Source: Sphingopyxis sp. PAMC25046 (GTDB lineage Bacteria; Pseudomonadota; Alphaproteobacteria; Sphingomonadales; Sphingomonadaceae). From it: DNA of 64,000 nt. This document shows positions 21,495 through 46,028 of the stretch, piece after piece (the stretch's first letter is position 1; every line of letters starts with the position of its first letter). The translations under genes and the position numbers were made by a program. The notes beneath the pieces are model-generated. The model saw only the letters and a list, made by a program, of their open reading frames with translations, made no database searches and had not been told where the DNA came from. The DNA lies in NCBI RefSeq assembly GCF_004795895.1, contig NZ_CP039250.1:3100001-3164000 (forward strand), read 5' to 3'.

Positions 21495-21504
21495 GACGAT
21501 CGCC

Positions 21505-25131: not shown

Positions 25132-25135
25132 TCCG

Positions 25136-27226: not shown

Positions 27227-27971
27227 CTTCCCGATACGCCGCCTCGGCCTGACCGCCGCTGCTGCCGTCGCCGCCATGACCATGGTCACCGCCGCCGCCG
27301 CGCAATCGATGGTCGTCCGCTCGACCGGCCCGTCGGCCGCCAAATATCCGGCCGGCGCGCGGCTCAAATCGACCGACAAGCTGACCCTCGTCGCCGGCGA
27401 CCGGATCGTGCTGATGCAGTCGGGAAAGACGCGGACGCTGTCCGGTCCCGGCACCTTTGGCGCCACCGGCACCGTGCAGGCGAGCCAGTCGCTGGGCGGC
27501 AATGTCAGCCGGATGCTCGCCAAGGGGCCGACGATGCGGTCGCGCGGCGGGTTTTCGCGCGGCCCCGACGACCCGATCCCGGCCGAGCATCGCGCGCCCA
27601 ATCTCTGGCTCCTCGACTATCGCGAGGGTGGGACCTTTTGCGTCCTCGATCCCGCATTGCTGATGCTATGGCGCCCCAATATGCAGGGTGATACCGCGCT
27701 CGAGATCGAAAGCGGCGGCAAGAAGACGACCGTCGCGATCGTCGATGGCGCCAATTTTCGCAAATGGCCGACCGACGTCCTGCCGGTGCAATATGGCGCC
27801 GAATACCGCCTTTCGGGCGGCGGGCTGGCGCAGCCGGTGACGGTGCGTTTCGCCGCTGTCGAAAACGCCCCCGATACGCCCGAGGGGTCGGTCGACATGC
27901 TGATGAGCAAGGGTTGCACGCCGCAGCTCAACCGCCTCGTCGATACGATGTCGGAAGCGGAGGCGGGTTGA
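27213..27971 (+). CDS. Exported protein with FecR-like beta domain
   Basis: A 252-residue protein with a signal peptide (RLGLTAAAAVAAMTMVTAAAAQS). The segment AKYPAGARLKSTDKLTLVAG then KTRTLSGPGTFGATG at about residues 45-85 resembles the FecR beta-sandwich found in proteins that sit next to CHAT genes. A second half with a single pair of Cys (GGTFCVLDPALL and MSKGCTPQLNRL) is unique to me. The ATG at 27213 lies inside the cyclase end (overlap of 14 bases), so translation is coupled. Function unknown; the position suggests a periplasmic or surface partner of the CHAT protein. Confidence 0.7.
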   Translation: MSFPDFPIRRLGLTAAAAVAAMTMVTAAAAQSMVVRSTGPSAAKYPAGARLKSTDKLTLVAGDRIVLMQSGKTRTLSGPGTFGATGTVQASQSLGGNVSRMLAKGPTMRSRGGFSRGPDDPIPAEHRAPNLWLLDYREGGTFCVLDPALLMLWRPNMQGDTALEIESGGKKTTVAIVDGANFRKWPTDVLPVQYGAEYRLSGGGLAQPVTVRFAAVENAPDTPEGSVDMLMSKGCTPQLNRLVDTMSEAEAG

Positions 27972-28129: not shown

Positions 28130-28146
28130 GAACGCAAGGGGTGGTG

Positions 28147-29970
28147 ATGGCCGTGTCGGGGGATATGGGATTTCATGGGGCCGCAAGGTCCAGGCACGCG
28201 GCGATCCGCAGGCTATTGGCCGGCTCGGCGGGATTGATCGCGGCCGCGCTGCCTGCCCCTCTATGGGCACAGGCAACGCCGCAAATCCCGACGCGCGAAG
28301 AAATCCAGCGCCCGGCGCTGCCCCCCGCCGCGCAGCCCGGCGAACAGATCGTCGCGATCGACGACGGCATCGAACGCGCGCCCTGCCCGCTTGCCAGTCC
28401 CGAATTCGCGAATATCCGCTTCACGCTGCGCGGGGTCGAGTTTTCGCGCGTCGAAGGCATCGACAACAGCCTGCTCGCTCCGAGCTGGTCCGATCGCGTC
28501 GGACAGGAGCTGTCGATTGCCGCGGTGTGCGAGATTCGCGACCGCGCCGCGACGATCCTGCGGTCGCAGGGCTATCTCGCCGCGGTCCGCGTGCCGCCGC
28601 AGACGATCGGCGACGGCATCGTCCGGCTCGACATCCTTTCGGCGCGGATGACGCGCATCGAAGTGCGCGGCGACGCGGGCGCTAACGAAGGGCTGTTGCA
28701 ACGCTATCTCGCGCGGCTCGACGACGCGCCGGTGTTCAATATCGCCGATGCCGAACGTTACCTGCTGCTGGCGCGCGACATCCCGGGGATGGACGCACGG
28801 CTGACGCTACGTCCCGGCGCGGTTGCCGGCGAGGTCATCGGCGAAGTGACCGTCACGCGCACGCCCGTAACCTTCGACTTCAATGCGCAAAATATGGGAT
28901 CGCGCGACGTCGGCCGCTGGGGCGGCAATGCACGCGCGCGCTTCGCCGGCCTGACCGGCATGGGCGACCTCACCACGGTCAGCTTCTATGCGACGCCCGA
29001 TTTCGACGAACAGAAAGTGGTCCAGGCGTCGCACGAGTTCCGCGTCGGCGGCGAAGGATTGCGCCTTGGCGCCAGCTACACCTATGCTTGGACACGTCCC
29101 GACCTTGCTGGCCTGCCGATCAAGTCGAATACCCAGATCGTCAGCCTGTTCGGTTCCTATCCGCTCGTGCTGACGCAGGCGCGGCGCTTGAGCGTAGGCG
29201 GCGGGCTCGACATCATCGATCAGGACATCAGCCTGACCGGGGTGCCGCTCAACAAGGACCGGCTGCGTGTCTTGGGCCTGCGCGCCGACGCCAGCTGGAT
29301 CGACCCCGCCTCGATCGCTGGTCGCGGCGGCTATAACCCCGGCGAACCACGCTGGTCGCTCGCCACCTCGCTCGAAGCGCGGCAGGGTCTGGATTTCCTT
29401 GGCGCCAGCGACGATTGCGGCCCGGGCGGCACGGCCTGTTTCCTGCCCGGCGCGGTGCCGCTGACGCGCATCGAGGGCAAGCCCGACGCATTCCTCGTTC
29501 GAGCCAACGCGCTCGCCGAATGGCGGCCCGCAAAAGCGTTCACACTGTCGGCGGCGCCGCGCGCGCAATGGGCGGCCGACCCGCTGCTCGCCTATGAAGA
29601 ATTTTCGGGCGGCAATTTCACCGTCGGGCGCGGCTTCGACCCCGGCACGGTGATCGGCGACAGCGGCGTCGCGGTGGCGCTCGAAGCGCGCTATGGCTCG
29701 TTCGTTCCCGCCAATACGAACGCCTTCGCCTTTCAGCCCTTCGTCTTTTTCGACGCCGCCTGGGTGTGGAACAAGGATACCGCCTTCGACGGACTCGATC
29801 CGCAAAAACTCTATTCAGCGGGCGGCGGCGTGCGTGTCGCTTATGGCAACCTCGGCCGGCTCGACGTCACGCTCGCGGTACCGCTCAACCGCGGCGGCTT
29901 CCTCACCGAACGGCCCGATCCGCGACTGCTCGTGTCGCTGACCACCCAATTCGGCGTAGGGGCGCGCTGA
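28147..29970 (+). CDS. Two-partner secretion transporter, ShlB/FhaC/HecB family (TpsB)
   Basis: A 607-residue outer-membrane transporter from ATG 28147 (GTG codons at 28141 and 28144 lie in the leader). Signal peptide: RRLLAGSAGLIAAALPAPLW with ALPAPLWAQA. Two POTRA domains follow (LRGVEFSRVEGIDNSLLAPS; LDILSARMTRIEVRGDAGAN) and then the 16-strand barrel from about residue 230. The conserved L6 motif of this family is VGRGFDPG near residue 495. It secretes a TpsA protein through the outer membrane, presumably the giant exoprotein encoded 3 bases downstream. Confidence 0.93.
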   Translation: MAVSGDMGFHGAARSRHAAIRRLLAGSAGLIAAALPAPLWAQATPQIPTREEIQRPALPPAAQPGEQIVAIDDGIERAPCPLASPEFANIRFTLRGVEFSRVEGIDNSLLAPSWSDRVGQELSIAAVCEIRDRAATILRSQGYLAAVRVPPQTIGDGIVRLDILSARMTRIEVRGDAGANEGLLQRYLARLDDAPVFNIADAERYLLLARDIPGMDARLTLRPGAVAGEVIGEVTVTRTPVTFDFNAQNMGSRDVGRWGGNARARFAGLTGMGDLTTVSFYATPDFDEQKVVQASHEFRVGGEGLRLGASYTYAWTRPDLAGLPIKSNTQIVSLFGSYPLVLTQARRLSVGGGLDIIDQDISLTGVPLNKDRLRVLGLRADASWIDPASIAGRGGYNPGEPRWSLATSLEARQGLDFLGASDDCGPGGTACFLPGAVPLTRIEGKPDAFLVRANALAEWRPAKAFTLSAAPRAQWAADPLLAYEEFSGGNFTVGRGFDPGTVIGDSGVAVALEARYGSFVPANTNAFAFQPFVFFDAAWVWNKDTAFDGLDPQKLYSAGGGVRVAYGNLGRLDVTLAVPLNRGGFLTERPDPRLLVSLTTQFGVGAR

Positions 29971-29972
29971 CC

Positions 29973-32900
29973 ATGATCTTTGCATCGAGGACCACTGCCA
30001 TGCGTGCCACCGCCACCTTCTCGCCCGTCCGTAAAGGCAAGCAGCACCTGCTGACCAGTTGCGCGATCGCCGCCGGTATCGCCGCGCTTGCCCATGGCGG
30101 CCCGGCGCAAGCGCAAGTGGCCGGTTCGGGCAGCTTCGTATCGGGCACGGGCTCGATCGGCAACGATGGCGCGACCAACACGACGACGGTGAATGTCGGC
30201 GGGACGGAAAGCATCATCAACTGGGTGCCGACCGACACCGCGCCGACGGGCGGCGCGATCGATTTTCTGCCCGCTGGCGAGAATATGAATTTCGTCGGCA
30301 CCGGCGACTATACCGTCCTCAACCGCTTCGTGAACGGCGGCGGCGGATCGCTCGGCCGCCAGATCGCCCTCAACGGGACGGTTAACTCCTATACGGGATC
30401 AACCAGCGGCCCGCGCGGGGGCAATATCTGGTTCTACAACGCGGGCGGCATCCTGATCGGCGCCAGCGGAGTGGTCAACGTCGGCAGCCTGCTGCTCACG
30501 ACGAACGACATCGTGACGACCGGCGGCCTGTTCGGTCCCGGCGGCACGATCCGCTTCAGCGGCGCGTCGGGCAGCACGTCGGCGATCACCGTGAACGGCG
30601 CGATCAATGCGGATATCGTCGGCAGTCCCGGCAGCTCCTATGTCGCGCTGGTCGCGCCGCGCGTGGTGCAGGCCGGTGCCGTCCGCGTCGACGGATCGGC
30701 CGCCTATGTCGCCGCCGAGCAGGCGAATATCCGCATCAACGGCGGCCTCTTCGACATCGACGTGACCGTCGGCGCCGAAGGCGGTGACGCGATCACCCAT
30801 ACGGGCACGACCACCGGTCCGGCGCACCTCGACGCCAATGGCAACCAGAGCCGTATCTATATGGTCGCCATTCCCAAGAATGACGCGGTGACGATGCTGG
30901 TTTCGGGCGCGATCGGCTATGACGACGCACTGTCGGCGCAGGTCGATCCCGACGGTGCGGTGCGCCTGTCGGCGGGCTATAATATCGTCGGCGGCGAAAT
31001 CGCCGCGGCGCCCGCCAATGCGACCGCGGCGAACATCGCCGCCAGCGATACGCTGTTCCGCAGCAATACGATCGCGCGCGCCAGCGGCACCTTTGCCGCC
31101 GGGCCGACACAGGTGCTGCCCGGATCGCCCACGCCGCTGTCAGCGGAAGGACAGTTCTTCGTCGAAGGCAGCGGGACCTTCATCGGCGACGCCAGCGCGA
31201 CGGTTTCTATCGGCGCCAATCAGTCGGGCGGCGCGACGGGGACCCTCACGGTCCAGTCGGGCGGCCGTGGCGGAACGCCCGGCAACGCCGCGATAAACGT
31301 CACCGGAGGGACGCTCTCGACGCCCGGCGCGCTCACCATCTCGGCCTCGGGCACGCCCGACGCGGTCACCGGCGATGCGCAGGGCGGCACCGCCAGCCTG
31401 ACGATCACGGGCGGCAGCGTGACGACCGCGGGGGTCACGGTCGAAGCCAATGGCTTCGGCGACCTCGACGCGGGCGGCACAAGCGGCAACGGACGCGGGG
31501 GCAGCGCCAGCATTTCGGTGAGCAACGGCGGCAGCTCGTTGACCGCCGGCAATATCTTCATCAACGCGGTCGGAAGCGGGGATAACAGCTTCAGCACCGC
31601 TCCCGCCGTCAACGGCAGCGGGACCGGGGGCACCGCCAGCCTGACGGTCGCGGGCGGCGGCAGCGTCGGACCGGCAGCCCTGCTTTCGCTCGACGCGAGC
31701 GGATTTGGCGGCTTCGGCCTGACCCAGTCGGGCGACGGCACCGGCGGCACGGCGCGCATCGCGGTGTCGGGCGCGGGATCCTTCCTCTCGGCAACGCAAA
31801 GCTTCGTCGACGCGACGGGCGAAGGCGGCGGGAGTTTTGGTAGCTTCCAGACCCAGAATGGCGGCAACGGAACGGGCGGGACGGCCGAAATACTGATCAA
31901 CGCCGACGCGACTTCGGTCGTGTCGCTGGGCAATCTCGGCGCCTTCGGTATCGGGAGTGGCGGCAACGCTCGAGGAAGCGAGAATACGACCGGCGGCGAC
32001 GCGCTGGGCGGTTCGGCCCGCTTGATCGTCGATGGCGGCGCCAACGCGCAGTTCACCCAGGTCGTGCTCGACGCGTCCGCGGCTGCCGGAACCGCCACCA
32101 CCCCCAGCGGCACGACCGGCCAGTCGGGCAACGCGCGTGCGAACGATGTGACATTGACCGCGACGAACGGGTCGACGATCGGCAGCAGCGGCTTCATCAA
32201 CCTTTTCGCCGTCGGCATGAACCCCTATCCGTTCAACCCCGCCGGTGAGAATTTTGGAGCGGGCACGGGCGGCAATATCGCGGTGAGCGCGACCGCCGGA
32301 GGGACGATCACCACCGGCAACCGCCTCACCGCACAGGCGATGGGCGGAAGCATGTCCGACACCGTCCGGCAAAGCGCCGGCGACGGCATCGGCGGCAATG
32401 TCGATTTTCTCGCCGATGGCGGAACGATCCAGGCCGAGGTCTATGACGTGGATGCCAGCGGCAACACAGCCAATGTTACCGGCACGGGCGGCACGGCGCA
32501 GGGCGGCACGATCGACATCTTCGCGCAGAACGGCGGACAGTTTGTCGCAACGCTCGACGCGACCAACCGTTTCGACGCCAGCGCCACGACGGGCATCAGC
32601 GCGGCGGGCACGGCGGCCACCGGCGGCACGATCCAGCTGATCGCCGACGCCGGCACGATCGACCTCGGTATCGGCGCCAACCTGTTCGCCGACGGCCGCT
32701 CGGGCGGCGCGGCGACATCCGGCGCGGCCGATCCGACCGGCGCCGGTGGCGCGATCCTGATCCGCGTCGAAGCCGATGCGACGGACAGCAGCCGCATCGA
32801 CACGGGCGACCTGTTCGCGTCGGCCGGCGGCCAGACCCAGGCCGAGAGCGAAACACCGCCCGGCGTCGAACTTCCCGCGGGCAACGGCCAGGGGGGCACG

Positions 32901-35900
32901 ATGACGGTGGAGGTCGCGGGCGGCACCCTCACCGGCGGCGTCCTCGATCTCTCGGCGAATGGCCTCGGCGGCGGCGGGGCGGACAGCGCAACGGGAACCG
33001 GCGGCAGTGCCACCTTCAGCCAAACGGGCGGGACCGTGTCGGTTGGTGACATAAGCGTTGCCGCCGACGGCTTCGGTGGCGCCGTGCAAGGCACGTCGGG
33101 AACCGGCGTCGGCGGTATCGCGACGATCGACCTGTCGGGCGGCACGATCACCGCGGCCGACATTATCGCCTCGGCCAGCGGCACCGGCGGTATCGGTGTG
33201 ACCGGTGACGATTTCGACCCACTCAACATCGTCGCGAGCGGCGATGGCGGCGTCGGCCGTGGCGGCACCGCAACGATCAGCATCGACGGCACAGCGGTCG
33301 TCGATGCCAGCGTCATTCAGGCGAATGCGCTCGGCACGGGCGGCGACGGCGGCCAATTCGACAGCTTCTTCAACGGGATAGTGGGCGACGCAGGCAACGC
33401 GGGCGAGGGCATCGGCGGCGAGGCGACCGTCAATGTGCGCGGGGGCACGACGACCGCGAGCAGCGTGATCGCCGACGCATCGGGTATTGGCGGCGATGGC
33501 GGCTACAGCTTTTTCTCGGGCAGCGGCGCTCCCTCGACCGGCATCGGCGTCGGCGGCACCGGCGGCACCGGCCGTGGCGGCACCGCGACGATCGCGCTCG
33601 AAACCGCCATCGACGGCGTCGGCGCGGCGAGCAGCGTCGCGCTCGGTTCCGGCGGCGCGGGCGGCGATCACAATGTCGGCGGCAATGGCGGCGACGGCTT
33701 CGGCGGGACGGCGCAGGCGATCGTCACCGGCTTCGAGGCCGGCGACCTCGCGGTCATTATCGATTCGACCGGCACCGGCGGCAATGGCGCCAATGGTGCC
33801 GACGGCGCGGGCGGCGGCGGCGGCAACGGCACCGGCGGCACCTCGCGCATCGCGGCCGAGGGCGCGGGAGCGAGCCTGACCGCGATCCAGAGCAACCTCG
33901 TATCCGGCGGCATCGGCGGCAACGGCGGCGCGGGCGGGCTGGGTTTCAGCTCCTTCCCGGCGGCCGCCCCCGACGGCGGCAACGGCGGCAACGGGCAAGG
34001 CGGCGCGATCGAGATTGCGGCGAACGAAGGCGGCACCGTAGCACTTGGCCTCGACAGCGGCGACGACGCCGTCTCGCTATCGAGCAGCGGCTCCGGCGGC
34101 GCGGGCGGCCTCGGCAGCAACAGCAGCTTCGGTGAGGGAAATCAGTCGGGCAACGGCGGCGACGGCGGCGCGGGAACCGGCGGCACCGTTCGCCTTGCCG
34201 CAACCGGCGGGACGATCACCTCGAACGGCGAAACGGTCGATATCACTTCGAGCGGCCTTTCGGGCGAGGGCGGCAGCGGCGGCAACGGCCAAGGTGGCGG
34301 CGTGGATGGCGCGCTTGGCATTTCGGGGCAGACCACAGGTGGCCGCGTCGTGATCGAAACGGCGGTCGGCGCTTCAGGTGCCGGCCAGATCGACCTCGGC
34401 CCTACGAGCATTGCGGCGAACGGCGATTTTGCCGGGCGCATCGAATTGCGTGCGGGCGGCACGATCAGCTTCGCCGGCCTCGATGCCGAAGCTTTGGGGA
34501 TCGCCGCCCCAACGAACAACGACACCGACACCGCGCTCGCGGGAATCTTCGTCGCGCCGACCGGCGGCACGATCGTCAGCCAGGGCGACGTCTCGCTGAC
34601 CACAGACGGCTCCGTCGGCGTCCATGCCCAGTCGAACGGCATCGTCGATGTCGACGGCATTCTGACCATCGACGCGGGCGACCAGATCGACATCCGCCAC
34701 GATGCGCGCGAAGGCGGCGGCCCGACGCTGCGCGCAAGCGACAGCCTGACCGCAAATGCGGTCACGAGCATCAGCGGCGCGCCGGACAGCCTGATCGCCG
34801 CGGGCGGCGCGCTGTCGCTGACCACCGACGGAACGATCGGCGTCGACGGCCTCGCCGGCAGCGACATCACGCTCACCAGCACCGGCGCGACGACCGTCGA
34901 ACATGCCGAAGCCGTCAATGATTTCACCGCGAACGCCGCCAGCTTCGCAACCGGCCTCAATTCGATTATCACCGGCGGCAATATCGATATCACCTCGCCC
35001 GGCGCGGTCGATCTCGGCAATTCGAGCGCGGGCGGCTTCGTCCAGGTTTCGGGGCAATCGATTGCGTTCAACAATATCGACGCGGGCCTGACGGTCGGTC
35101 TGTCGGCGGACGGGACGGCGCCGGGCGCCGAGGGTATCAGCGGCGGATCGATCGCGGCCGGCGGCAACATCAACCTGTTCGCGAACAGCATCGCGCTGAG
35201 CGGCCCGGTGACGGGCGACGCCTCCTTCTTCGCCTTCGGCACCGGCGGCGCGGTTTCGGTGAACGGCGCCGACGTCGCCGGCACGATCTCGATCTTCTCC
35301 GCCGACGATCTTTCGGGCAGCTTCATCGCGGGCGGCGACATCTTTCTCAATTCGGATGGCAACATCGATGCCTCGGCGCAGGCGAACGGTGGCTATGTCG
35401 ATGGCAACGGTCTCGTCACCGAAGGCAATTTGTTCATCATCGCCGCAGGCGACGCCGCGCTGACCGACAGCTCCGCGGCGCGCATGTTCGGCATAAGCGC
35501 GGGGGGCGGCGCATCGATCGACGGCGGCATCGCGGGCGAAGACATGCTCGTCGTCGCCGGAACGACCGCCAGCCTGACCGACGTCAGCGTAGGCGACGAC
35601 CTCACCGTCAACGCGCCGGGAAACATCGACGCAGTCAATGTCAGCGCGACCGGCGCGGGCGCCGACACGCGTATCCTCAGCTTGTCCTCGGGTTCGGGAA
35701 GTCCGATCTTCACCATCGGCGTCGGCGACGGAAGCGGCGCCGACATCGTGATGTCGTCGACGGCGGGCATTGCGGGCGGCGGCGTTCGCGCGCTCGGGGA
35801 CGTGACGCTGACGGCGAGCAACGCCATCGGTCTCACCTCGGTCCAAGGCCAGAATGTCGCGCTGACCGGCGCGACCGGCATCGATGTGGATGCGGCCAAT

Positions 35901-37406
35901 GTGCTCGGCGCGACCAGCCTGAACAGCAGCGACGGCGATATCCGTATTGGCAGCCTGCTCGCCGCAGGCCCGATCGATGCCAGCGCCGATGCGATCCGCA
36001 TCGAAGGCGGCGGCGACCTGGCCTTTGCGTCCCTCAACACCGACGTCGGCGACGCTTACGTCCGGGCGACGGGCGATCTGTCGATTGCAAGCGCCGACGT
36101 CGCCGGAACGGCCGACTTCGGAACGCAAGCCGAAGGCATGAGCATCGGCACGCTCACAGCCGCCAACGCGATCCTCGCCAATTCGGGCGGGTTCCTCAAT
36201 CTCGACAGCGTGACCGTCGCGGGCAGCATCGACGCGAGCGCGCTCGCATCGCTCGGCATCACCGGCGTCGTCACCGGCCAGTCGATCGCGCTCGCCTCGG
36301 CGAACATAGCGATAGGCTCGGCGGGCCGCGTCGGCACCGCGGGCGTAACCCAGCAATTGTCGGTCGCGAACAACAATAGCGACAACCAGACCTTCGTCGG
36401 CGGCGCATCGGGCACGAGTGTCACGGGCTATCATATCGACGCCGAAGAGCTGACCCGCCTCTATGGCAGCCAGATCGAAATCTTCGCGCCTGCGGTACAG
36501 GCCGCCGGCGGAACCTCGGTCGGGTCGGCGGCCCCGCCCGACCTCATCGTCGACACTTTCACCATGGCGGGAGGTGCATCGAACTCGAATCTCGGCGCGA
36601 ACGGCGCGCTGACCATCCGCACGCCGGGCAAGATGCGCGTGGTCGGCAATGCCGAACTGACCGGTCTCACCGACGCCAACACGCTCAATCTCGTCGCGGG
36701 CGATGCGCTCGAAGTCGTCCTCGGCCAAGGAAGCGTGCGGCTCGTGAACGGCGCCGGCCCCGCGGGGCAGCTCAACATGGTCTCCGAAGACGTCATCGTC
36801 GCCACCGCCGGAGCCATCGCCGATGTCGGCGCGGCCACCTCGACCAGCGCGATCAACACGCGGCTCGCACAGAATGACGGCGTCCTCCTCGACGAAGGCG
36901 CACTCTTCGCACGCGGCATCCGCGCCGAGGTAGTCGGGGGCTTCTATGTCCAGAACAGCGGGGCAGGAACCGACCTCGCCCAGCGCCGCGGGCTGACCTT
37001 CGGCACCGGCGGGCTCGACGTCGTCACCCAGGGGCGCTCGCGCATCGTCGTTAACGGCGTGCAGCTTGGCCCGAACGGCCAGGTGACCGGCCTCGACACG
37101 CTCCAGCTTCTGACCGTCGCCGGCGCGGTGCCGACCGTCGGCAGCTATGATCGGGGGTCGACGGTCAACGGCTGCCTTATCTCTAGCCCGAACGTCTGCG
37201 CCACCGTCGTTTTCGACAATAATTTCCCGGTGCAGGATGTCATCGAGGAGATCGACGGCGACGAGGACAGCGCAGGCGAAGGCAACACCCTGCCGCAGCC
37301 GCTGATCACGATGCGCGAGGTGGACCCGCTAACCGGCGCACCGCTTCTCGACGATCCGGTGACCGGCGCGGGCAACGACGATCTCTGGACGCCGCCCGCG
37401 CAGTAA
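29973..37406 (+). CDS. Giant filamentous-hemagglutinin-like exoprotein (TpsA)
   Basis: A 2,477-residue secreted protein. Long signal region at 1-48 (RKGKQHLLTSCAIAAGIAAL), then the TPS secretion domain about 49-300. The usual NPNGI motif is replaced by NAGGI (FYNAGGILIGASGVVNVGSL). Residues about 370-1480 are Gly/Thr-rich repeats with GGTGG, GNGGDGG and TLTGGVLDLSANG-like beta-helix turns; the rest continues as a beta-helix. A two-Cys loop (CLISSPNVC) and a C-terminal DDPVTGAGNDDLWTPPAQ follow. TpsA proteins are surface adhesins or contact effectors; no toxin domain is visible here. ATG 29973 is 2 bases past tpsB; ATG 30000 with AGGA is an alternative. Confidence 0.93.
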   Translation: MIFASRTTAMRATATFSPVRKGKQHLLTSCAIAAGIAALAHGGPAQAQVAGSGSFVSGTGSIGNDGATNTTTVNVGGTESIINWVPTDTAPTGGAIDFLPAGENMNFVGTGDYTVLNRFVNGGGGSLGRQIALNGTVNSYTGSTSGPRGGNIWFYNAGGILIGASGVVNVGSLLLTTNDIVTTGGLFGPGGTIRFSGASGSTSAITVNGAINADIVGSPGSSYVALVAPRVVQAGAVRVDGSAAYVAAEQANIRINGGLFDIDVTVGAEGGDAITHTGTTTGPAHLDANGNQSRIYMVAIPKNDAVTMLVSGAIGYDDALSAQVDPDGAVRLSAGYNIVGGEIAAAPANATAANIAASDTLFRSNTIARASGTFAAGPTQVLPGSPTPLSAEGQFFVEGSGTFIGDASATVSIGANQSGGATGTLTVQSGGRGGTPGNAAINVTGGTLSTPGALTISASGTPDAVTGDAQGGTASLTITGGSVTTAGVTVEANGFGDLDAGGTSGNGRGGSASISVSNGGSSLTAGNIFINAVGSGDNSFSTAPAVNGSGTGGTASLTVAGGGSVGPAALLSLDASGFGGFGLTQSGDGTGGTARIAVSGAGSFLSATQSFVDATGEGGGSFGSFQTQNGGNGTGGTAEILINADATSVVSLGNLGAFGIGSGGNARGSENTTGGDALGGSARLIVDGGANAQFTQVVLDASAAAGTATTPSGTTGQSGNARANDVTLTATNGSTIGSSGFINLFAVGMNPYPFNPAGENFGAGTGGNIAVSATAGGTITTGNRLTAQAMGGSMSDTVRQSAGDGIGGNVDFLADGGTIQAEVYDVDASGNTANVTGTGGTAQGGTIDIFAQNGGQFVATLDATNRFDASATTGISAAGTAATGGTIQLIADAGTIDLGIGANLFADGRSGGAATSGAADPTGAGGAILIRVEADATDSSRIDTGDLFASAGGQTQAESETPPGVELPAGNGQGGTMTVEVAGGTLTGGVLDLSANGLGGGGADSATGTGGSATFSQTGGTVSVGDISVAADGFGGAVQGTSGTGVGGIATIDLSGGTITAADIIASASGTGGIGVTGDDFDPLNIVASGDGGVGRGGTATISIDGTAVVDASVIQANALGTGGDGGQFDSFFNGIVGDAGNAGEGIGGEATVNVRGGTTTASSVIADASGIGGDGGYSFFSGSGAPSTGIGVGGTGGTGRGGTATIALETAIDGVGAASSVALGSGGAGGDHNVGGNGGDGFGGTAQAIVTGFEAGDLAVIIDSTGTGGNGANGADGAGGGGGNGTGGTSRIAAEGAGASLTAIQSNLVSGGIGGNGGAGGLGFSSFPAAAPDGGNGGNGQGGAIEIAANEGGTVALGLDSGDDAVSLSSSGSGGAGGLGSNSSFGEGNQSGNGGDGGAGTGGTVRLAATGGTITSNGETVDITSSGLSGEGGSGGNGQGGGVDGALGISGQTTGGRVVIETAVGASGAGQIDLGPTSIAANGDFAGRIELRAGGTISFAGLDAEALGIAAPTNNDTDTALAGIFVAPTGGTIVSQGDVSLTTDGSVGVHAQSNGIVDVDGILTIDAGDQIDIRHDAREGGGPTLRASDSLTANAVTSISGAPDSLIAAGGALSLTTDGTIGVDGLAGSDITLTSTGATTVEHAEAVNDFTANAASFATGLNSIITGGNIDITSPGAVDLGNSSAGGFVQVSGQSIAFNNIDAGLTVGLSADGTAPGAEGISGGSIAAGGNINLFANSIALSGPVTGDASFFAFGTGGAVSVNGADVAGTISIFSADDLSGSFIAGGDIFLNSDGNIDASAQANGGYVDGNGLVTEGNLFIIAAGDAALTDSSAARMFGISAGGGASIDGGIAGEDMLVVAGTTASLTDVSVGDDLTVNAPGNIDAVNVSATGAGADTRILSLSSGSGSPIFTIGVGDGSGADIVMSSTAGIAGGGVRALGDVTLTASNAIGLTSVQGQNVALTGATGIDVDAANVLGATSLNSSDGDIRIGSLLAAGPIDASADAIRIEGGGDLAFASLNTDVGDAYVRATGDLSIASADVAGTADFGTQAEGMSIGTLTAANAILANSGGFLNLDSVTVAGSIDASALASLGITGVVTGQSIALASANIAIGSAGRVGTAGVTQQLSVANNNSDNQTFVGGASGTSVTGYHIDAEELTRLYGSQIEIFAPAVQAAGGTSVGSAAPPDLIVDTFTMAGGASNSNLGANGALTIRTPGKMRVVGNAELTGLTDANTLNLVAGDALEVVLGQGSVRLVNGAGPAGQLNMVSEDVIVATAGAIADVGAATSTSAINTRLAQNDGVLLDEGALFARGIRAEVVGGFYVQNSGAGTDLAQRRGLTFGTGGLDVVTQGRSRIVVNGVQLGPNGQVTGLDTLQLLTVAGAVPTVGSYDRGSTVNGCLISSPNVCATVVFDNNFPVQDVIEEIDGDEDSAGEGNTLPQPLITMREVDPLTGAPLLDDPVTGAGNDDLWTPPAQ

Positions 37407-38947: not shown

Positions 38948-39892
38948 ATGTCGAAAACCGTTACCGTCCTGTCGGGCCTGATCCGCCCGCTCGTCGAAAA
39001 CCGCCTGCCCGACTGGGTCGAACCGCGCTTTTTCGCGTCGAAGGAGGAGGCGCTCGAACTGGCGCCCGGGGCCGAGATCGGCTGGTTCGACATGTACGAC
39101 AAGAAGGATATGGCCGCGGTCATCACCGCCGCGACGCAGCTCAAATGGCTCAATTCGATCTACGCCGGGGTCGACGGCATGCCGCTGGACCTGCTGCAGG
39201 CGCGCGGGACGATCGTGACGAACGGCGCCGGAATCAACGCGATCACCATCGCCGAATATGTCGTGATGGGCATGCTCACCGTCGCCAAAGGCTATCGCGA
39301 CGTCGTCCGCGCGCAGGAACGCCGCGAATGGCTTATGGACTCGCCGGGCAAGGTCGAGCTGTTCGGGTCGAAGGCGCTGCTGCTCGGCTATGGCGCGATC
39401 GGCAAGTTGGTCGAAGAACGACTGAAGGCGTTCGCGGTCGACGTCACCGTGGTGCGCCGTTCGCCCGGTCCGAATACGCTCTCCCCCGATCAGTGGCGCG
39501 AACGGCTCGGCGGTTTCGACTGGGTGATCCTCGCCGTCCCCGCCACACCCGAAACCGATGGCATGATCGGCGCCGCCGAACTCGCCACGATGAAGCCGAG
39601 CGCGACGCTCATCAACATCGCACGCGGCAGCGTTGTCGATCAGGACGCGCTCGTCGCCGCGCTCGACGGCCAGCAGATCGCGTCGGCTTTCCTCGACGTC
39701 ACCACGCCCGAGCCGCTGCCCGCCGACGACCCGCTGTGGAGCCTCGACAACGCGCACATCACGATGCATCTGTCAGGACGCGCGCAGGACAAGATGTTCG
39801 TCCGCTCGGCGCAGCGCTTCCTCGAAAATCTGGGTCGCTGGAAAAAGGGCGAAGCCGTCGAACCGCGCGTGGACCTCACGCTGGGTTACTGA
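38948..39892 (+). CDS. D-2-hydroxyacid dehydrogenase family protein
   Basis: A 314-residue NAD-dependent 2-hydroxyacid dehydrogenase from ATG 38948 (preceded by AAGAGAGG). The nucleotide motif is LGYGAIGKLVEERLKAF; the catalytic region shows NIARGSVVDQDALVAAL (Arg) and ITMHLSGRAQ (His), with Glu in TTPEPLPADDPLW. Family members reduce 2-oxo acids such as hydroxypyruvate or glyoxylate; the exact substrate is not shown. Its last 7 bases overlap the convergent phosphodiesterase gene. Confidence 0.88.
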   Translation: MSKTVTVLSGLIRPLVENRLPDWVEPRFFASKEEALELAPGAEIGWFDMYDKKDMAAVITAATQLKWLNSIYAGVDGMPLDLLQARGTIVTNGAGINAITIAEYVVMGMLTVAKGYRDVVRAQERREWLMDSPGKVELFGSKALLLGYGAIGKLVEERLKAFAVDVTVVRRSPGPNTLSPDQWRERLGGFDWVILAVPATPETDGMIGAAELATMKPSATLINIARGSVVDQDALVAALDGQQIASAFLDVTTPEPLPADDPLWSLDNAHITMHLSGRAQDKMFVRSAQRFLENLGRWKKGEAVEPRVDLTLGY

Positions 39893-40737
39893 CCCGGCCG
39901 CTCGGCCTTCAACTCGCGCACCAGCGGCTGCAACCGCATGTCATATTTGGCGAGCGTCGGGCGCGCGCCCGCATTGTCATAAAAGCTGACGAGTTCGCGC
40001 CCGTTCCAGCGGTGGAGCGCATAGGCGGGCTCTTCGGCAACGATCATCGGGCGGTCGTCGGGACGATTCTCGTCGATCGGGCGAAGATCGAGCGACACCT
40101 GCGGCGCTGTCGACGAACAGATCGCTATGGTCCGCCCCTCCCACGCCACCGTCACGCTGCGGTGGAGGTGGCCACAGATCAGACCGCGCACTTGGTTGTG
40201 GCGGCGCACGACCTCGGTGAAGGTCGCAACCCAAGGTTCGTCAGGGTTGGTGTTCATCCATTCGATCCCGCTTTCGACTGGCGGATGGTGCATCACGATA
40301 TAGGTCGGCTTGGCGCTATCCTTCGCAAGTTCGGCGTCGAGCCACGCCGCGCGCCTTTCGCAGAAGGCGCCGCCATGGCGCCCTTCCTCGAGCGTGTCGA
40401 CGGTAACCAGCCGGAGCTCGGGAAGCTCGACCGTATATTGAACGAAGCCGTTGCCGTCGTCGAAATCCGGGAAGTGCGCGTAGAAACTGTCGCGCAGATC
40501 GTGGTTGCCGACGCTCGGCCAGACCGGGAAAGGGCAGCGCGCGAAAATCTCCGCGAGTTCGCGATAGCTTTCCCCGTCGCCGCGGTCGGTGATGTCGCCG
40601 GTCGCGAGCAGCAGGTCGGGGCGGTTCGGCCCGTCGATCAGCATGTCCAGTACCCGGTCGAGCCGCTCGCGATTATATTCGGCCGGATTGCCCGGATCGA
40701 ACCCGATATGGATATCTGTGATCTGTGCGATCAGCAT
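39886..40737 (-). CDS. CpdA-like calcineurin-type phosphodiesterase
   Basis: A 283-residue metallophosphoesterase from ATG 40737 (MLIAQITDIHIGFDPGNPAE). All five blocks are present: ITDIHIG, LLATGDITDRGDG, VGNHDLRDSF, YIVMHHPPVESG and LICGHLHRSV. These bind two metals and are the pattern of class III cAMP phosphodiesterases (CpdA) that hydrolyse cAMP, though members also act on other phosphodiesters. Near the CHASE2 cyclase and the cyclic-nucleotide-binding flavoprotein, a cAMP role is plausible but inferred. The gene overlaps the dehydrogenase end by 7 bases and starts 29 bases from the end of the decaheme gene. Confidence 0.85.
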   Translation of the reverse strand: MLIAQITDIHIGFDPGNPAEYNRERLDRVLDMLIDGPNRPDLLLATGDITDRGDGESYRELAEIFARCPFPVWPSVGNHDLRDSFYAHFPDFDDGNGFVQYTVELPELRLVTVDTLEEGRHGGAFCERRAAWLDAELAKDSAKPTYIVMHHPPVESGIEWMNTNPDEPWVATFTEVVRRHNQVRGLICGHLHRSVTVAWEGRTIAICSSTAPQVSLDLRPIDENRPDDRPMIVAEEPAYALHRWNGRELVSFYDNAGARPTLAKYDMRLQPLVRELKAERPGQ

Positions 40738-40766: not shown

Positions 40767-42701
40767 CTATCCGCCCCGTCTGGCCCCATGCAAGGCGGGT
40801 GTGCGCCACGTCACTTCGTAAAGGCCCCGCCCCCCGGTTCCTGTGATCAGGCTCACACCATAGGTAGCGCGCAGAGGTTTATTTGTGATTGCGGTCACAT
40901 TTTTCTTGCGCTGGCGCTGCGGCATCCACGGTTTGCCACCGTCCGAATGATATTCGTGACACATCGCGCACGGCGATTCGGTTGCGGTTTCGACCTTCAC
41001 CAGCCGCGCGCCATTCTCGCCCACATGGCAGTCGCGGCACTGGCGGACGCCCGGCACGAGCAGGTCGGTCGACGCCTTCGACGCGGGCGCCGCGACGTGA
41101 CAATCGGCGCAGGCGGTTTCCTTGTGCGCGTCATGGTCGAACCAGCCTTTTTGCAGATAGCGCGGCGTCTGGTTCACCGCCGCGACGCGCCAGCTGTTCC
41201 CGGCCTGCGGCGCGAAGATCGTATGACAATCGTAACAGGCGCCGCCCTTTGAAAAGACCGCGCGCACCGCATCTCCTGCGCGCGACGGTCGCACCGCGAC
41301 CTCGTTGAAATAAATATTATAGACCTGCCCCTCGGCATAAGCGCCCGGCCGCCGCCGTTGCATCCCGCCAAGCTGGAGTGGCCGCGCCGGCGGCGCCGAG
41401 CGGTAATAAGCGGTAAGGTCCGCGACGACCTGCCCGGGGTCGCCGTGCCGCAAAGTTCGCGTCACCCCTCCCACGGTCTCGAAAGCAAGGCTGTGGCACA
41501 TCGCGCAGTCGCGCTCCATCTCGACCGGCTTGACCCGCACGCCATCGGCCTCGACGCGATGGCAATTTTCGCATTCGAGCTTCTTGCCGAAATCATGGCG
41601 GCCGCGGAAGCTCGCCGCCATGCGCGCGACCCCGCCGGTCGCCTGCAAGTGCATGTCGTGCGGGAATTTAAGGCCGTTGTAATCGACGGTCCCCTTGGCC
41701 AGCGTCGTGCGCACCAGCTTGCCGCCCGGCCCGGGGCGCACGAGGGGGCGGAATTCGGGATGACTCGTCCCGAAATCACTGGCGTCGGCAAGCGTCGTCG
41801 GATGCCCGGCAATCTTGAGCCGCGCCGACATGCCGTCGTGGCAATCGGCACAGAATTTCTGCGGTGTCGCCGCCATCGGCCCCGCGCCCTCATGCTCGGT
41901 GTGGCAATCGACGCACCGGCCTTGCGGTTTGTTGAAGGTTTTGGCGAACCCAGCAAGGATGCGCTCGCCCACCCCCGGCGGATGGCGCGCGGCGAGCAGC
42001 ATCGCAGTCGGTGCATTGGCGTGCGCTGCGCTCATCGCCTTGTGCTCGCCGGTGTGGCACCCCACGCACGCCTTGTCGGTCACCGCAACGAAGGGCTCGA
42101 CATGGCACGACTGGCAGTCGTTCTTCAGGCTCGCGTGCGCGCTCGATAATGGGCCCGAGAGCCACGCGCTATCGGCATGATAGCCGTCGGGACGCTCGTC
42201 CACTTGCCGGTAGCTGTACCACGCCCAGATCGGCCCGACCAGGAAGGCGAGCAGCATCAACAGGCCGAACGCCCACGCCGCGATGCGCTTGCCGGGCATC
42301 GTCCCCGCGAGTGAAAAGGCCTTCGCCTCGTCGACGTCCTTCGACGATTGCGACAGTTCGTCTATCCGTTCGACCAGCAGGATGATCTTGTCATCCTCGC
42401 GCGCGATCGTCAGCCGGTGCCCCCCGAAGCGCAGTTCGGCGCCCGCCGCGCTGTCGATGTCGGCCACATCGACGCTGCGGCCGTTGAAATCGAAGCCCAG
42501 CCCCTCGAGCGCCGCGACGCGCACATGACGCCCGTCGGCGCTGCTGATCGTCGCATGGTGCGGGTTCACCGCCAGGTCGGCGACGTGGATGATATTGCCG
42601 CTCTCGCGCCCGAGCGTGATCGTGTCGCCCGGCAGCGCCTGATCGCGGACGATCTGCTTGCCGGTCTTGGTCGTCGCGATGCGGCGGAGAATGAAGCTCA
42701 T
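40767..42701 (-). CDS. FHA-domain decaheme cytochrome c
   Basis: A 644-residue protein from ATG 42701. Residues 1-115 are a cytoplasmic FHA domain (TITLGRESGNIIHVADLAVN with GR31-32, S34 and H48-H49). One helix spans about 140-163 (LLMLLAFLVGPIWAWYSY). The rest is periplasmic with ten CxxCH sites: CQSCH, CVGCH, CVDCH, CADCH, CENCH, CAMCH, CYDCH, CADCH, CRDCH and CAMCH, each a covalent heme site. FHA domains bind phosphothreonine; joining one to a multiheme cytochrome is rare. It is the last gene of a three-gene operon with a 10-base gap to the cytochrome b-like gene, so it should take electrons from that membrane protein. Confidence 0.9.
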   Translation of the reverse strand: MSFILRRIATTKTGKQIVRDQALPGDTITLGRESGNIIHVADLAVNPHHATISSADGRHVRVAALEGLGFDFNGRSVDVADIDSAAGAELRFGGHRLTIAREDDKIILLVERIDELSQSSKDVDEAKAFSLAGTMPGKRIAAWAFGLLMLLAFLVGPIWAWYSYRQVDERPDGYHADSAWLSGPLSSAHASLKNDCQSCHVEPFVAVTDKACVGCHTGEHKAMSAAHANAPTAMLLAARHPPGVGERILAGFAKTFNKPQGRCVDCHTEHEGAGPMAATPQKFCADCHDGMSARLKIAGHPTTLADASDFGTSHPEFRPLVRPGPGGKLVRTTLAKGTVDYNGLKFPHDMHLQATGGVARMAASFRGRHDFGKKLECENCHRVEADGVRVKPVEMERDCAMCHSLAFETVGGVTRTLRHGDPGQVVADLTAYYRSAPPARPLQLGGMQRRRPGAYAEGQVYNIYFNEVAVRPSRAGDAVRAVFSKGGACYDCHTIFAPQAGNSWRVAAVNQTPRYLQKGWFDHDAHKETACADCHVAAPASKASTDLLVPGVRQCRDCHVGENGARLVKVETATESPCAMCHEYHSDGGKPWMPQRQRKKNVTAITNKPLRATYGVSLITGTGGRGLYEVTWRTPALHGARRGG

Positions 42702-42711
42702 CGTCCGCGCC

Positions 42712-43593
42712 TCACCAATAGAAGAAGACGCTGATGATGTGCGCCGACAGCGCCGCAATCAGTGCGAAGGTCAGCGGCACATGCACATAGAGCCAGATTT
42801 CGAGCAGCGCCCGGATGCGAAGATGCTTGCGCAGCCGGGCGAGCGCGGCCTGCTTCTGCGACAATAGCCCGACGACCTTTTCGCGCACCTCGGGCTCGCT
42901 GCTGCGCGACGCCGACAGGGCGCGATGGGCGGCAGCGGTCGCGCAATTGCGGTAACGCCCGCTCAGCCGGGCCCGGACGCCGCCCGCGAACGGATCCTCG
43001 TCGAGCGCGGCGAGCACCGGCGCGGTATCTTCGGGGGTCAGCGGCTGCGCGGCGCTGTGCAACTGGCGGTCGAAGGCGCGGATCGCCTCGAGCATCTGCA
43101 TCTGCGTCATCTCGTCGCGATTGTTCGACAGCGCCTGCGGCAGCGTCGCATAGACGATCACGCCGTAAAGACCCGACAGGATCACCAGCATCATCAGCGC
43201 CCAGGCGAGCGTGTGGACGTTCCAGCCGAGCTGGAACCCCGTGTGCCAGGTGCCGATGACGATCAGGCTGAGCCCGAGGTAGACATGCGCCGACGTCCAC
43301 GCCTTCAATGACCAGTGGCTGCTCGTCATCTTGCGCTTGCGATAGCCGAGCGCGGTCAGCCACAGGATCAGCAACGCCCCGATCGTGCCGAGCGTATAGC
43401 CGTACCAGCTGCCGCCATTATGCCGCGGCGTGACGTCGATCAGCGCGTAGGAGACAATGATCAGCAGGCACAGCCCGCCCGAAATCTTCGCCCAGCGAAA
43501 GCCCGCATAGCGAAGGAAACCCTCGTGCCGCCGTTCGCGGACACGTTCGGTCTGCGTCGCCTTGTTACGGCGTCGCTCGAAAAGCGTCGCCAT
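42712..43593 (-). CDS. Cytochrome b-like integral membrane protein
   Basis: A 293-residue membrane protein from ATG 43593, which overlaps the stop of the upstream flavoprotein gene (TGATG). I see four helices in the first half (LCLLIIVSYALIDV; YTLGTIGALLILWLTALGY; AHVYLGLSLIVIGTWHTGFQ; HTLAWALMMLVILSGLYGVI), a long soluble segment and a final one (YVHVPLTFALIAALSAHII). His residues inside helices (SAHVYLG, GTWHTGF, NVHTLAW, YVHVPL, LSAHIIS) are candidate heme b ligands. It probably carries electrons across the membrane between the Fe-S flavoprotein and the decaheme cytochrome. No known family name fits with confidence. Confidence 0.75.
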   Translation of the reverse strand: MATLFERRRNKATQTERVRERRHEGFLRYAGFRWAKISGGLCLLIIVSYALIDVTPRHNGGSWYGYTLGTIGALLILWLTALGYRKRKMTSSHWSLKAWTSAHVYLGLSLIVIGTWHTGFQLGWNVHTLAWALMMLVILSGLYGVIVYATLPQALSNNRDEMTQMQMLEAIRAFDRQLHSAAQPLTPEDTAPVLAALDEDPFAGGVRARLSGRYRNCATAAAHRALSASRSSEPEVREKVVGLLSQKQAALARLRKHLRIRALLEIWLYVHVPLTFALIAALSAHIISVFFYW

Positions 43594-46028
43594 CAGTCCG
43601 CATCCTCCTCGAGCCGCGCGATCGACAGGAATTCCTCGGGAGACACGCGGATCGCGGCGCCGGTCGGGCACGCCCGGACGCACGCGGGACCTCCCGATAT
43701 GCCCTTGCACATGTCACACTTCACCGCGATCTTCTTGGGCTTCTCGTCGCCCAATTGCTTCTTGGTCCATTTGGCCGACGGCTCGCCCGGCCCGGGGCCG
43801 AAACCGGTGAGCAGCCAGCGCAGCAGGCTCGGTTTCTCGGGTGGCGCCGCTTCCATGCGGATCACGCCATAGGGGCAGTTGCGCATGCAGTTCCCGCAGC
43901 CGATGCAGCCGGGCTCCATGAACACTTCGCCGTCGGGACCGCGGTGGATCACGTTCGGCGGACAGTCGGCCATGCAATGCGGATGCTCGCAGTGGCGGCA
44001 GCTCGTCGGCACGTGCAGATGCGCGAAGGTCTTGCCCGCCTCGCGGTCGAGCCGCGACAGGCCTTCGTGGCTGTCGGCACACGCTTTTTCGCAATTGTCG
44101 CAGCCGACGCACAGATTCTCGTCGATCAGCAGCGCGTCGGTTGCCTCGCCGAGCCCCTCCTTCATGATGAAGCTCGCGGTGTCCGAATAAAGATCGACTA
44201 CGCTCGAATAGGTCGCTTTCCGCGATTCGATGAAGCTGTTCATCGCCGCGCGCTCGGCCACCGCCGCCTCGGTCGCCTCGCGCACCTGCGGCCGCGCGGC
44301 GAGCATCTTGCGAAAGCTCTCGCCGGTCAGCTTGATCAGCTCGGCGCCGACGGCGGCCTTGACCGTGGCATTGCGCGGCGCTCCGCTCAGCACGCCCATT
44401 TCGCCGAAGAAGCTGCCCGCGGGCAGATAGCGGAGGAAGATCGGCTTGCCGCCGATGTCCTTCTCGACCACCATCGACCCCGACCGGATGACATAGACGT
44501 CGTCGCCCTGCTCGCCCTCGGTCAGCACCACCTTGCCCGCGGGCACACGCTCGACCTCGGCGGTGTCGACGACGGGACCGAGATCGTCAACCGTCAGCCC
44601 GCCCTTGAAGATCTGAAGCAATTGCCGTTCGAGCGAGATGCGGTTGATCGCGCGTTTCGCGCCCGGGACCGAGGCCATCAACTTCAAGGCCGCGGTGCGC
44701 GACACCTCGACGAAGATGCCGTCCGCACCCGCGCGGATCGTCGCGCCGCGCTTGCGGCCAGAGATCAGCCCGACCTCGCCGAATATCGACCCCTGTTCGA
44801 TCGGCACCGTCACGCCCGGACCGACCTCGACCTCGGCAAAGCCGTCGGCGATCGCAAACAGCGACGATCCGGGTTCGCCCTTCTCGAAGACGACATCGCC
44901 CTTGCGGTAGAAGGCGACCGTCGAATCGAGCATGAATTCGCGCATCTGCAGCGGCGACACGTCGTTGAAGATACTGACGCGCGTGCGCAGATAGTCGAGC
45001 CACTCGCTGACCGACTTCTTCTGCGGCAGGTCGGCAAGGATTGCCGCCAGATCCTTTTCGTCCGCCGGGGTCAGGTCATTATTGCCATTGATGAACTCGA
45101 CGACGTCATAGCCCTGGTTCATGCAATGCTTGATCAGCGGATAACCCGCGAGCGCGCCGATCACGAAGATCCCGGGCACCGTCGATTCAAAGGTCGGCGA
45201 CAGCTTGGGAAAGGCCTCCCGATCGGGCCCGGTGAACTCGATCCCCATCGACTCGACGAAGCCGCGCGGCGCGACCGACCCCAGCCGCGCAACGATCACG
45301 TCGCACGGGATCGTCTCGTCACCGTCGGGTGTCTCGAGCGTCAGGAAACCGGGCTCGACCTTCTTCGGCTGCGTCTCGGTGCGGATGCTCATCAGCCCGT
45401 TTTCGCCCGCCTCCATCATGTCGGCGACATTCTTCGCCTTGGCGCGCGCGAAATCCTTCGAGCGGTTGAGGATCGTGACAGTGTTTTCGAGTGCTTCCTC
45501 GGCAACGCCGAGCGCATTTTCGATCCCCGCATCGCCCGACCCGACGACGGTGATATGCTTGTCCTTGAAATCCTCGGGATCGTCGACCTGATAGATGATG
45601 TGCGGCAAGTCGGCGCCTTCGCAGCGCATCCGGTTCGGATTGCCCTGCGTGCCGATCGCGAGCACGATATTTTCTGCCCGATAGACGTCGCCCTTCGTCG
45701 TCTTGATCGCGAAGGCACCCTTCTCGCCGCTCACTTCGGCGACTTCGGCGTGATAGGCGACCTCGACCTTGTTGTTCGCGGCATCCTCGTCCCAATTGTC
45801 GAGGATATATTCGCGCGCACCTTCGGCGAAGCGGCAGTCGGATCGCAGGTCGAGCCGCTCGGGGGTCGCGAGCACGCGCTTGCCCTTCTGATATTTGAAG
45901 ATGGTGTCGGAGAGGTGATCGGTCTTTTCGAGCAGGATGTGGCTAAGCCCGAGCTGCCCCGCGCGCGACGCGGCGCTGAGGCCTGCGGGCCCCGAGCCGA
46001 TGATCGCGACCTTGACCGCCTCGCTCAT
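43593..46028 (-). CDS. FAD-dependent oxidoreductase with two cyclic-nucleotide-binding domains and Fe-S clusters
   Basis: An 811-residue fusion from ATG 46028. Residues 1-320: pyridine nucleotide-disulfide-type flavoprotein (VAIIGSGPAGLSAASRAGQL for FAD; ITVVGSGDAGIENALGVAEE for NAD(P)H). Then two cNMP-binding domains with canonical cassettes: FGEVGLISGRKRGATI and FFGEMGVLSGAPRNATV, each with the Glu and the Arg needed to hold the phosphate. The C-terminus binds several [4Fe-4S] clusters (CVGCDNCEKACADS, CRHCEHPHCMADCP, CIGCGNCMRNCP, CDMCKGISGGPACVRACP). I infer NAD(P)H-driven electron flow gated by cyclic nucleotide, passing to the cytochrome b-like and decaheme proteins encoded downstream (TGATG overlap). 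Confidence 0.88.
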   Translation of the reverse strand: MSEAVKVAIIGSGPAGLSAASRAGQLGLSHILLEKTDHLSDTIFKYQKGKRVLATPERLDLRSDCRFAEGAREYILDNWDEDAANNKVEVAYHAEVAEVSGEKGAFAIKTTKGDVYRAENIVLAIGTQGNPNRMRCEGADLPHIIYQVDDPEDFKDKHITVVGSGDAGIENALGVAEEALENTVTILNRSKDFARAKAKNVADMMEAGENGLMSIRTETQPKKVEPGFLTLETPDGDETIPCDVIVARLGSVAPRGFVESMGIEFTGPDREAFPKLSPTFESTVPGIFVIGALAGYPLIKHCMNQGYDVVEFINGNNDLTPADEKDLAAILADLPQKKSVSEWLDYLRTRVSIFNDVSPLQMREFMLDSTVAFYRKGDVVFEKGEPGSSLFAIADGFAEVEVGPGVTVPIEQGSIFGEVGLISGRKRGATIRAGADGIFVEVSRTAALKLMASVPGAKRAINRISLERQLLQIFKGGLTVDDLGPVVDTAEVERVPAGKVVLTEGEQGDDVYVIRSGSMVVEKDIGGKPIFLRYLPAGSFFGEMGVLSGAPRNATVKAAVGAELIKLTGESFRKMLAARPQVREATEAAVAERAAMNSFIESRKATYSSVVDLYSDTASFIMKEGLGEATDALLIDENLCVGCDNCEKACADSHEGLSRLDREAGKTFAHLHVPTSCRHCEHPHCMADCPPNVIHRGPDGEVFMEPGCIGCGNCMRNCPYGVIRMEAAPPEKPSLLRWLLTGFGPGPGEPSAKWTKKQLGDEKPKKIAVKCDMCKGISGGPACVRACPTGAAIRVSPEEFLSIARLEEDAD

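Follow-up and report, generated by a model that had tools for sequence, protein, structure and literature searches.

The closest described systems each resemble a part of the one reported here. In the NADPH oxidase/ferric reductase transmembrane domain, electrons pass from NAD(P)H to a flavin and leave for the outside by way of a pair of stacked b hemes, which sit on helices of the HX13H type, and formate dehydrogenase-N (beta/gamma) and AegA/HydN provide examples of a four-cluster Fe-S protein adjoining a membrane cytochrome b. The Mtr/Pcc pathways lead from an inner-membrane entry protein through multiheme c proteins to an outer-membrane module with a barrel, and the entry proteins CymA, CbcL/MtrH/MtoC and ImcH are described in the relevant part of PMC6295460 as multiheme quinol oxidases. 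Here we analyse an operon in a 64,000-nt stretch of DNA (the window) from the 4.5-Mb, single-contig genome of Sphingopyxis sp. PAMC25046, which encodes a flavoprotein (FLAV), a membrane protein (CYB), a protein combining an FHA domain with ten CxxCH motifs (FHAC) and a metallophosphoesterase (MPE). With a probability of about 0.5, we propose that this operon encodes the inner-membrane half of an electron conduit across the envelope, which would be entered from NAD(P)H, switched by cyclic AMP (cAMP) at FLAV, and would feed an outer-envelope cytochrome module. The genes and domains of the operon are as follows (window positions):

43593..46028, minus strand: FLAV, an 811-residue flavoprotein with two cyclic nucleotide monophosphate (cNMP)-binding domains and four [4Fe-4S] motifs (Pfam, NCBIfam and PDB matches; 20-row alignment)
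45069..46028, minus strand: FAD/NAD(P)-binding domain of FLAV, about residues 1-320, TrxR/YpdA/FNR-like (Pfam and PDB matches; alignment)
44649..44921, minus strand: cNMP domain A of FLAV, about residues 370-460, with E418 and R427 (alignment)
44289..44576, minus strand: cNMP domain B of FLAV, about residues 485-580, with E543 and R552 (alignment)
43626..44132, minus strand: C-terminal HycB/DmsB/HydN-like domain of FLAV, 16 Cys corresponding to four [4Fe-4S] clusters (family matches; alignment)
42712..43593, minus strand: CYB, a membrane protein with His103/His117 and His271/His285 in two HX13H pairs, predicted di-heme b
40767..42701, minus strand: FHAC, with an FHA domain, one transmembrane helix and ten CxxCH motifs
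42366..42701, minus strand: FHA domain of FHAC, residues 1-112, with a degenerate phosphopeptide site
42210..42290, minus strand: transmembrane helix of FHAC, residues 138-164
40956..42116, minus strand: ten-heme region of FHAC, residues 196-582
39886..40737, minus strand: MPE, a class III-type metallophosphoesterase (SpdA/CpdA/Rv0805-like), fourth gene of the operon

The stop of FLAV and the start of CYB have one base in common (TGATG), CYB and FHAC are ten bases apart, and MPE starts on the same strand 29 bases past the end of FHAC. The original prediction had seen in FLAV, CYB and FHAC three coupled genes for an electron route to a decaheme cytochrome, controlled by both cyclic nucleotides and phosphorylation. 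The coupling is real and extends to a four-gene operon; the electron-chain reading and the intact cNMP pockets are also supported, phosphorylation control is not, and MPE and the outer-envelope cytochrome module had been overlooked.

Unlike the NADPH oxidases, the proposed chain has four [4Fe-4S] clusters inserted and a decaheme acceptor, and Ferric_reduct matches are limited to 3 of the 21 rows of CYB (best E 0.0076). It differs from formate dehydrogenase-N in that no molybdenum subunit is seen in the operon and in that the Fe-S domain is fused to a flavoprotein with cNMP domains, predicted to lie on the cytoplasmic side. In place of the Mtr/Pcc entries there would be two proteins, a flavin/Fe-S protein of the NAD(P)H type that carries cNMP domains and a predicted di-heme b protein, an architecture different from that of CymA, CbcL and ImcH as far as these are described in PMC6295460.

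The scheme that we infer, including its direction, the formation of a complex, cAMP as ligand, the function of the barrel and an external acceptor, would work as follows. NAD(P)H would reduce the FAD of FLAV, whose four [4Fe-4S] clusters would pass electrons to the heme b of CYB that lies on the cytoplasmic side (His103-His271). A transmembrane step would then bring them to the outer heme b (His117-His285) and onward to the ten hemes of FHAC, which would be held by a one-helix anchor with the FHA domain in the cytoplasm, perhaps as a degenerate docking domain. FHAC would hand them across the periplasm to the outer-envelope module, consisting of a c554-like tetraheme, an HbpS-like lipoprotein, a probable barrel and a ten-heme LVIVD protein. 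cAMP from a linked CHASE2 cyclase would bind FLAV and switch electron entry, and MPE would remove or filter cyclic nucleotides. Domain make-up, cofactor ligands, gene order and co-occurrence can all be read directly from sequence, and we take them in turn.

Gene order was compared in 80 named loci, the best 80 of 527 CYB relatives and those nearest to the window. FLAV, CYB, FHAC and MPE follow in this order in 75, with FLAV cut by the contig end in four (L079, L090, L104, L114). Three of the remaining five are contigs that end before the missing gene (L095, L111, L119), L106 (18.9 kb) is without MPE, and L081 is considered below. FLAV, CYB and FHAC are also adjacent in 20 of 20 loci fetched from the family (in L028 FLAV is cut by the contig end), followed by MPE in 18; it was not found in L043 and L044. 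The flanking genes are common to most Sphingopyxis loci and mostly lost in other genera: the four genes are alone in 29 of the 80 named loci, with ATE retained in L095 and L098. Because the four-gene order persists while the flanks mostly differ outside Sphingopyxis, the unit stays together as its surroundings change. Of 398 genomes sampled across the phylum, 17 have CYB. The nine that lie outside the family were fetched, and seven of these have FLAV, CYB and FHAC; in two of the seven, G181 and G297, which belong to a single genus, FLAV and CYB are fused into one chain. The distant loci have ten CxxCH motifs in G400, G513, G505, G298, G149 and G170, and nine in G181 and G297. The FLAV-CYB fusions, the gene order and the strict co-occurrence described below support a single pathway. 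The gene maps come from an open reading frame (ORF) picker based on GC content at third codon positions, which missed or mis-started some genes; CYB is undrawn in G002, G505 and G042, and MPE in G107, all of which BLAST found.

Two remote loci have other arrangements. In L146 (G170, 5670-11572) a flavin-less FLAV-like protein stands with CYB-like, ten-heme and three-heme proteins, and in L145 (G503, 7533-12323) a distant CYB relative adjoins overlapping ORFs with 24 and 19 CxxCH motifs.

Within the flavin domain of FLAV, the conserved GxGDAGxE motif and R189 fit NADPH as the donor, short of proof. Since the donor domain is of the NAD(P)H type, and such flavin domains more commonly take NAD(P)H as their donor, outward electron flow seems more likely. 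An inward chain, from an external or periplasmic donor through the multiheme proteins and CYB to FLAV and NAD(P)H, strikes us as improbable, although nothing decisive speaks against it, many genes of the relatives' maps carrying no annotation: all the carriers are reversible in principle, ferredoxin-NADP reductases are among the PDB matches of FLAV, and the relevant part of PMC6295460 reports electron flow either way for proteins of the CymA and CbcL types. Identity of FLAV as a YpdA/Bdr bacillithiol disulfide reductase was rejected (128.9 bits against an NCBIfam cut-off of 339.9); Ala15 occupies, in 20 of 20 rows, what we take to be the position of the YpdA active-site Cys in the FAD-binding GxGPCG motif.

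Both cNMP pockets of FLAV keep their phosphate contacts (E418/R427 and E543/R552) in all 20 rows, with Glu and Arg nine residues apart, the spacing of the phosphate-binding cassette of cyclic-nucleotide-binding (CNB) domains. They are likewise intact in 7 of 8 distant rows, the exception being the G170 protein, which has no flavin domain but two CNB domains and Fe-S motifs, the second CNB without Glu and Arg. The C-terminal domain matches HycB, HydN, DmsB, FDH-beta-type and AegA models. Its 16 Fe-S Cys, corresponding to four [4Fe-4S] clusters (the original prediction had spoken of several sites), are invariant in the 20-row alignment and present in 8 of 8 distant rows. Upstream of FLAV (300 bp or less), CRP-like palindromes are found in 7 of 22 loci at two or fewer mismatches, against 0.077 in shuffled sequence, and the window has three mismatches; this is a suggestive but weak sign of a CRP box. 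An FNR/FixK box was found in the same region, at the same threshold, in 1 of 22 loci (shuffled rate 0.036).

The AlphaFold model of CYB has five helices (33-51, 63-89, 96-116, 126-159 and within 234-291), and its charge distribution places the N-terminus, the loop 85-99 and the long loop 149-262 in the cytoplasm. His103 and His117 lie on helix 3, His271 and His285 on the last helix, and all four are kept in each of 21 rows and of nine distant relatives. CYB thus has the four His in two helices of the HX13H di-heme cytochromes b, and because the two HX13H pairs are invariant it probably binds two b hemes. If the two helices run in the same direction, one heme would be placed near each membrane face. 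Nineteen of 21 rows weakly match the b561/Ni-hydrogenase b family (E of 0.1 or less, best 2.2e-7), many members of which are quinone-linked. CYB could accordingly exchange electrons with the quinone pool, as FdnI/CbcL-type cytochromes do, so that FLAV would feed or drain quinones and FHAC would not be a direct partner. We think this quite unlikely, because the HX13H pairs on helices 3 and 5 point to a through-membrane heme pair, and because CYB lies between FLAV and FHAC wherever all three genes are found. A search of viral contigs for CYB relatives returned none.

FHAC has ten CxxCH motifs in 21 of 21 rows, all beyond a single transmembrane helix, as in multiheme c-type cytochromes and as the original prediction had counted them; the heme region is modelled mostly at pLDDT below 50. 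The N-terminal domain has the FHA beta-sandwich fold, in which Arg of GR, Ser of SxxH and Asn of NG(T) have phosphopeptide-contact roles. Every row here keeps the Arg of GR, the His of SxxH and the Gly of NG, but the contact Ser (position 46) is present in 0 of 21 rows and the Asn of NG in 5 of 21. The FHA domain that had been predicted to recognise phosphothreonine is therefore real in fold, but fails as a phosphothreonine binder at the motif. Among 149 family genomes, Hanks-type kinases do not track the operon either (26 of 52 genomes with FHAC, 45 of 97 without; p 0.73). With the phosphate-contact Ser missing throughout, phosphorylation control of the system is unsupported.

The second half of the proposed conduit would be a module that lies near or beside the operon in the maps of relatives. 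It comprises a tetraheme with a Pfam Cytochrome_C554 match, an HbpS-like lipoprotein, a barrel candidate and a ten-heme LVIVD protein of about 1,300-1,500 residues (Pfam). The host genome carries its copy at 271-282 kb of the contig (271302-282419; locus L169), at least 1.6 Mb from the operon. All ten barrel candidates, those of eight relatives, the host genome and pMSHV (see below), end in Phe or Tyr, as is usual for outer-membrane barrels, and are probable outer-membrane barrels. In the 149 family genomes the LVIVD protein is found in 53: all 52 that have FHAC, and one of the 97 that do not (G022, 67% complete). In the phylum it occurs in 11 of 398 genomes, all among the 17 with CYB. These presence lists and positions were compiled by eye, and Fisher tests were applied to them.

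The conserved cofactor ligands, the FLAV-CYB fusions, MPE, and the co-occurrence of a class III cyclase and a second ten-heme protein support the flavin/Fe-S/heme b/heme c chain across the inner membrane that had originally been predicted. This chain might nevertheless end in the periplasm, with the c554-like tetraheme or the LVIVD decaheme as the terminal reductase of a soluble compound and extracellular acceptors playing no part. The Cytochrome_C554 match, together with weak NrfB- and c7-like stretches in FHAC, is consistent with such a reductase; however, a barrel candidate and an HbpS-like lipoprotein occur in the module in eight and seven mapped relatives respectively, as well as in the host genome and pMSHV, and we regard the periplasmic alternative as unlikely.

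Other genes recur beside the module. A glutamate dehydrogenase gene (Pfam ELFV) lies 50 bases ahead of the tetraheme, HbpS-like, barrel and LVIVD genes in the host genome, and related genes (cluster c13) appear in the maps of G002, G014, G513 and G400. A CcmH/CycH-type TPR gene stands divergently beside the host module (270195-271145 of the contig) and is found in 29 of 37 loci compared (for example L029, 10578-11537); it is divergent beside FLAV in G021, G107, G014 and pMSHV.

The putative source of cAMP lies at lower coordinates of the window, within a cluster that also contains CHAT and two-partner secretion (TPS) genes:

21406..25131, plus strand: CHAT-domain protein of the cyclase/TPS cluster, true start probably later
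25136..27226, plus strand: CHASE2-class III cyclase with intact catalytic residues, linked to but outside the operon
27213..27971, plus strand: 252-residue protein of the cluster, no Pfam match
28141..29970, plus strand: TpsB (ShlB/FhaC-type) of the cluster
29973..37406, plus strand: giant exoprotein, named TpsA from its place after TpsB, no Pfam match, start set by position

A class III cyclase is present in 64 of the 149 family genomes: in 52 of 52 with FHAC and in 12 of 97 without. It lies within 35 kb of FHAC in 26 of the 52, of the LVIVD protein in 38 and of either in 40, against about 4% expected per point for an assumed 3.3-Mb genome. Among the rows listed, eight genera contain both states, and the cyclase follows the operon in seven of them (pairs G014/G103, G117/G034, G119/G036, G120/G037, G041/G121, G146/G078 and G147/G079; discordant G072/G140). 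CHASE2 is found in 7 of 7 linked cyclases scanned (that of the window and six others, among them the one of G505, a genome outside the class). All ten linked cyclases that were aligned retain the two metal Asp and the Lys associated with adenylate cyclases; that of G400 has lost the Asn.

MPE is a calcineurin-type phosphoesterase (E 8.2e-18), with Rv0805 as a PDB relative. Its DxH, GDxxD, GNHD and GHxH metal motifs occur in 19 of 19 rows (D51 is Glu in three). The named families score below their cut-offs, the 3',5'-cAMP phosphodiesterase family with 76 bits (225) and SpdA with 140.4 bits (400), so assignment to the 2',3'-cNMP phosphodiesterases of the SpdA family by cut-off was rejected. A comparable set of parts is the CHASE2 cyclase/SpdA/NsrA/Clr circuit of Sinorhizobium meliloti, which, as far as PMC13001267 and PMC4222275 describe it, has a CHASE2 cyclase and an SpdA-type phosphoesterase at one locus, together with an effector that binds cAMP. 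That effector is a transcription factor; the candidate for this role here is a redox enzyme.

The intact pockets, the association with a CHASE2 cyclase and the phosphoesterase MPE support cAMP control, and cAMP probably gates electron entry at FLAV. Two observations weaken this. SpdA, the founding member of the family that MPE matches best, cleaves 2',3'- and not 3',5'-cAMP according to the relevant part of PMC4222275, and the cyclase is outside the operon, in the CHAT/TPS cluster in the window, G042, G021, G107 and pMSHV. The electron chain could thus be right without cyclic-nucleotide control, the CNB domains being structural or binding another ligand and the cyclase serving the CHAT/TPS cluster, a view to which the loss of Glu and Arg from the second CNB of the remote G170 protein also lends itself. 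We consider it somewhat unlikely, since both pockets are otherwise so consistently kept, the cyclase accompanies the operon in every family genome with FHAC and in seven of eight genera, and the maps of G002, G505, G513 and G072 show a CHASE2 cyclase with no TPS or CHAT gene labelled nearby.

The cluster of CHAT protein, CHASE2 cyclase, 252-residue protein, TpsB and giant exoprotein (21406-37406, plus strand, in the window) recurs near the redox modules in G042, G021, G107, pMSHV and, in part, G400. On plasmid pMSHV of Sphingobium herbicidovorans, cyclase, TPS pair, module and operon lie side by side within 32 kb. Its order is CHAT, CHASE2 cyclase, small protein, TpsB, giant protein, tetraheme, heme-binding protein (the HbpS-like lipoprotein), barrel candidate, ten-heme protein and two further genes, followed on the other strand by metallophosphoesterase, FHAC, CYB and FLAV, and then by a TPR gene. 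BLAST ties 14 of 15 pMSHV proteins to genes described here, the fifteenth being a small hypothetical protein.

Several further points weigh against a cAMP-switched conduit from NAD(P)H to the outer envelope. The CHAT/TPS cluster may be the real partner of the cyclase, and in 12 of the 52 FHAC genomes neither module has a cyclase on its contig within 35 kb, some of these cases being due to contig breaks. Preference for NADPH over NADH hangs on the single conserved R189. The CYB model (mean pLDDT 69) has no convincing fold match: Foldseek gave none at E of 0.001 or less, and VIA-align returned all-helical chains and bundles with no clear leader. The three barrel candidates searched have no Pfam match, MtrB/PioB included, and the CYB relatives of G149, G181, G297, G298, G170 and G503 are without an LVIVD protein (the operons of G149 and G298 lie close to the end of their contigs). 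L081, a 4.2-kb contig of a metagenome-assembled genome that ends inside FHAC, shows CYB and FHAC, and its 2.1 kb of upstream sequence contain no FLAV. Finally, genomes of one family are not independent, which inflates the Fisher values.

Tentatively, and with somewhat less confidence than for the conduit itself, we suggest from the gene and domain content that the CHASE2 cyclase senses the outside and that cAMP gates the NAD(P)H-Fe-S flavoprotein, which would deliver electrons over a quinone-independent di-heme b/decaheme bridge to a surface ten-heme protein, as an entry type besides CymA, CbcL and ImcH. No description of such a system was recognised in the open-licence papers searched, which is no proof of novelty. 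If the suggestion is true, electrons at the level of NAD(P)H would leave the cell bypassing the quinone pool, and a second messenger would gate extracellular electron transfer directly at a redox enzyme. About one third of the genomes sampled from the family, which is known as mostly aerobic, have the system. It would also give one shared function to generically named genes in genera such as Sphingopyxis and Sphingobium; those of pMSHV, for example, are annotated as 'hypothetical protein', 'cytochrome c3 family protein' and 'cyclic nucleotide-binding domain-containing protein'.

Beyond the cyclase/TPS cluster, the minus strand of the window encodes a BlaR1-type M56 peptidase (18075-20057) and a metallo-beta-lactamase-fold protein with a winged helix (17004-18002).
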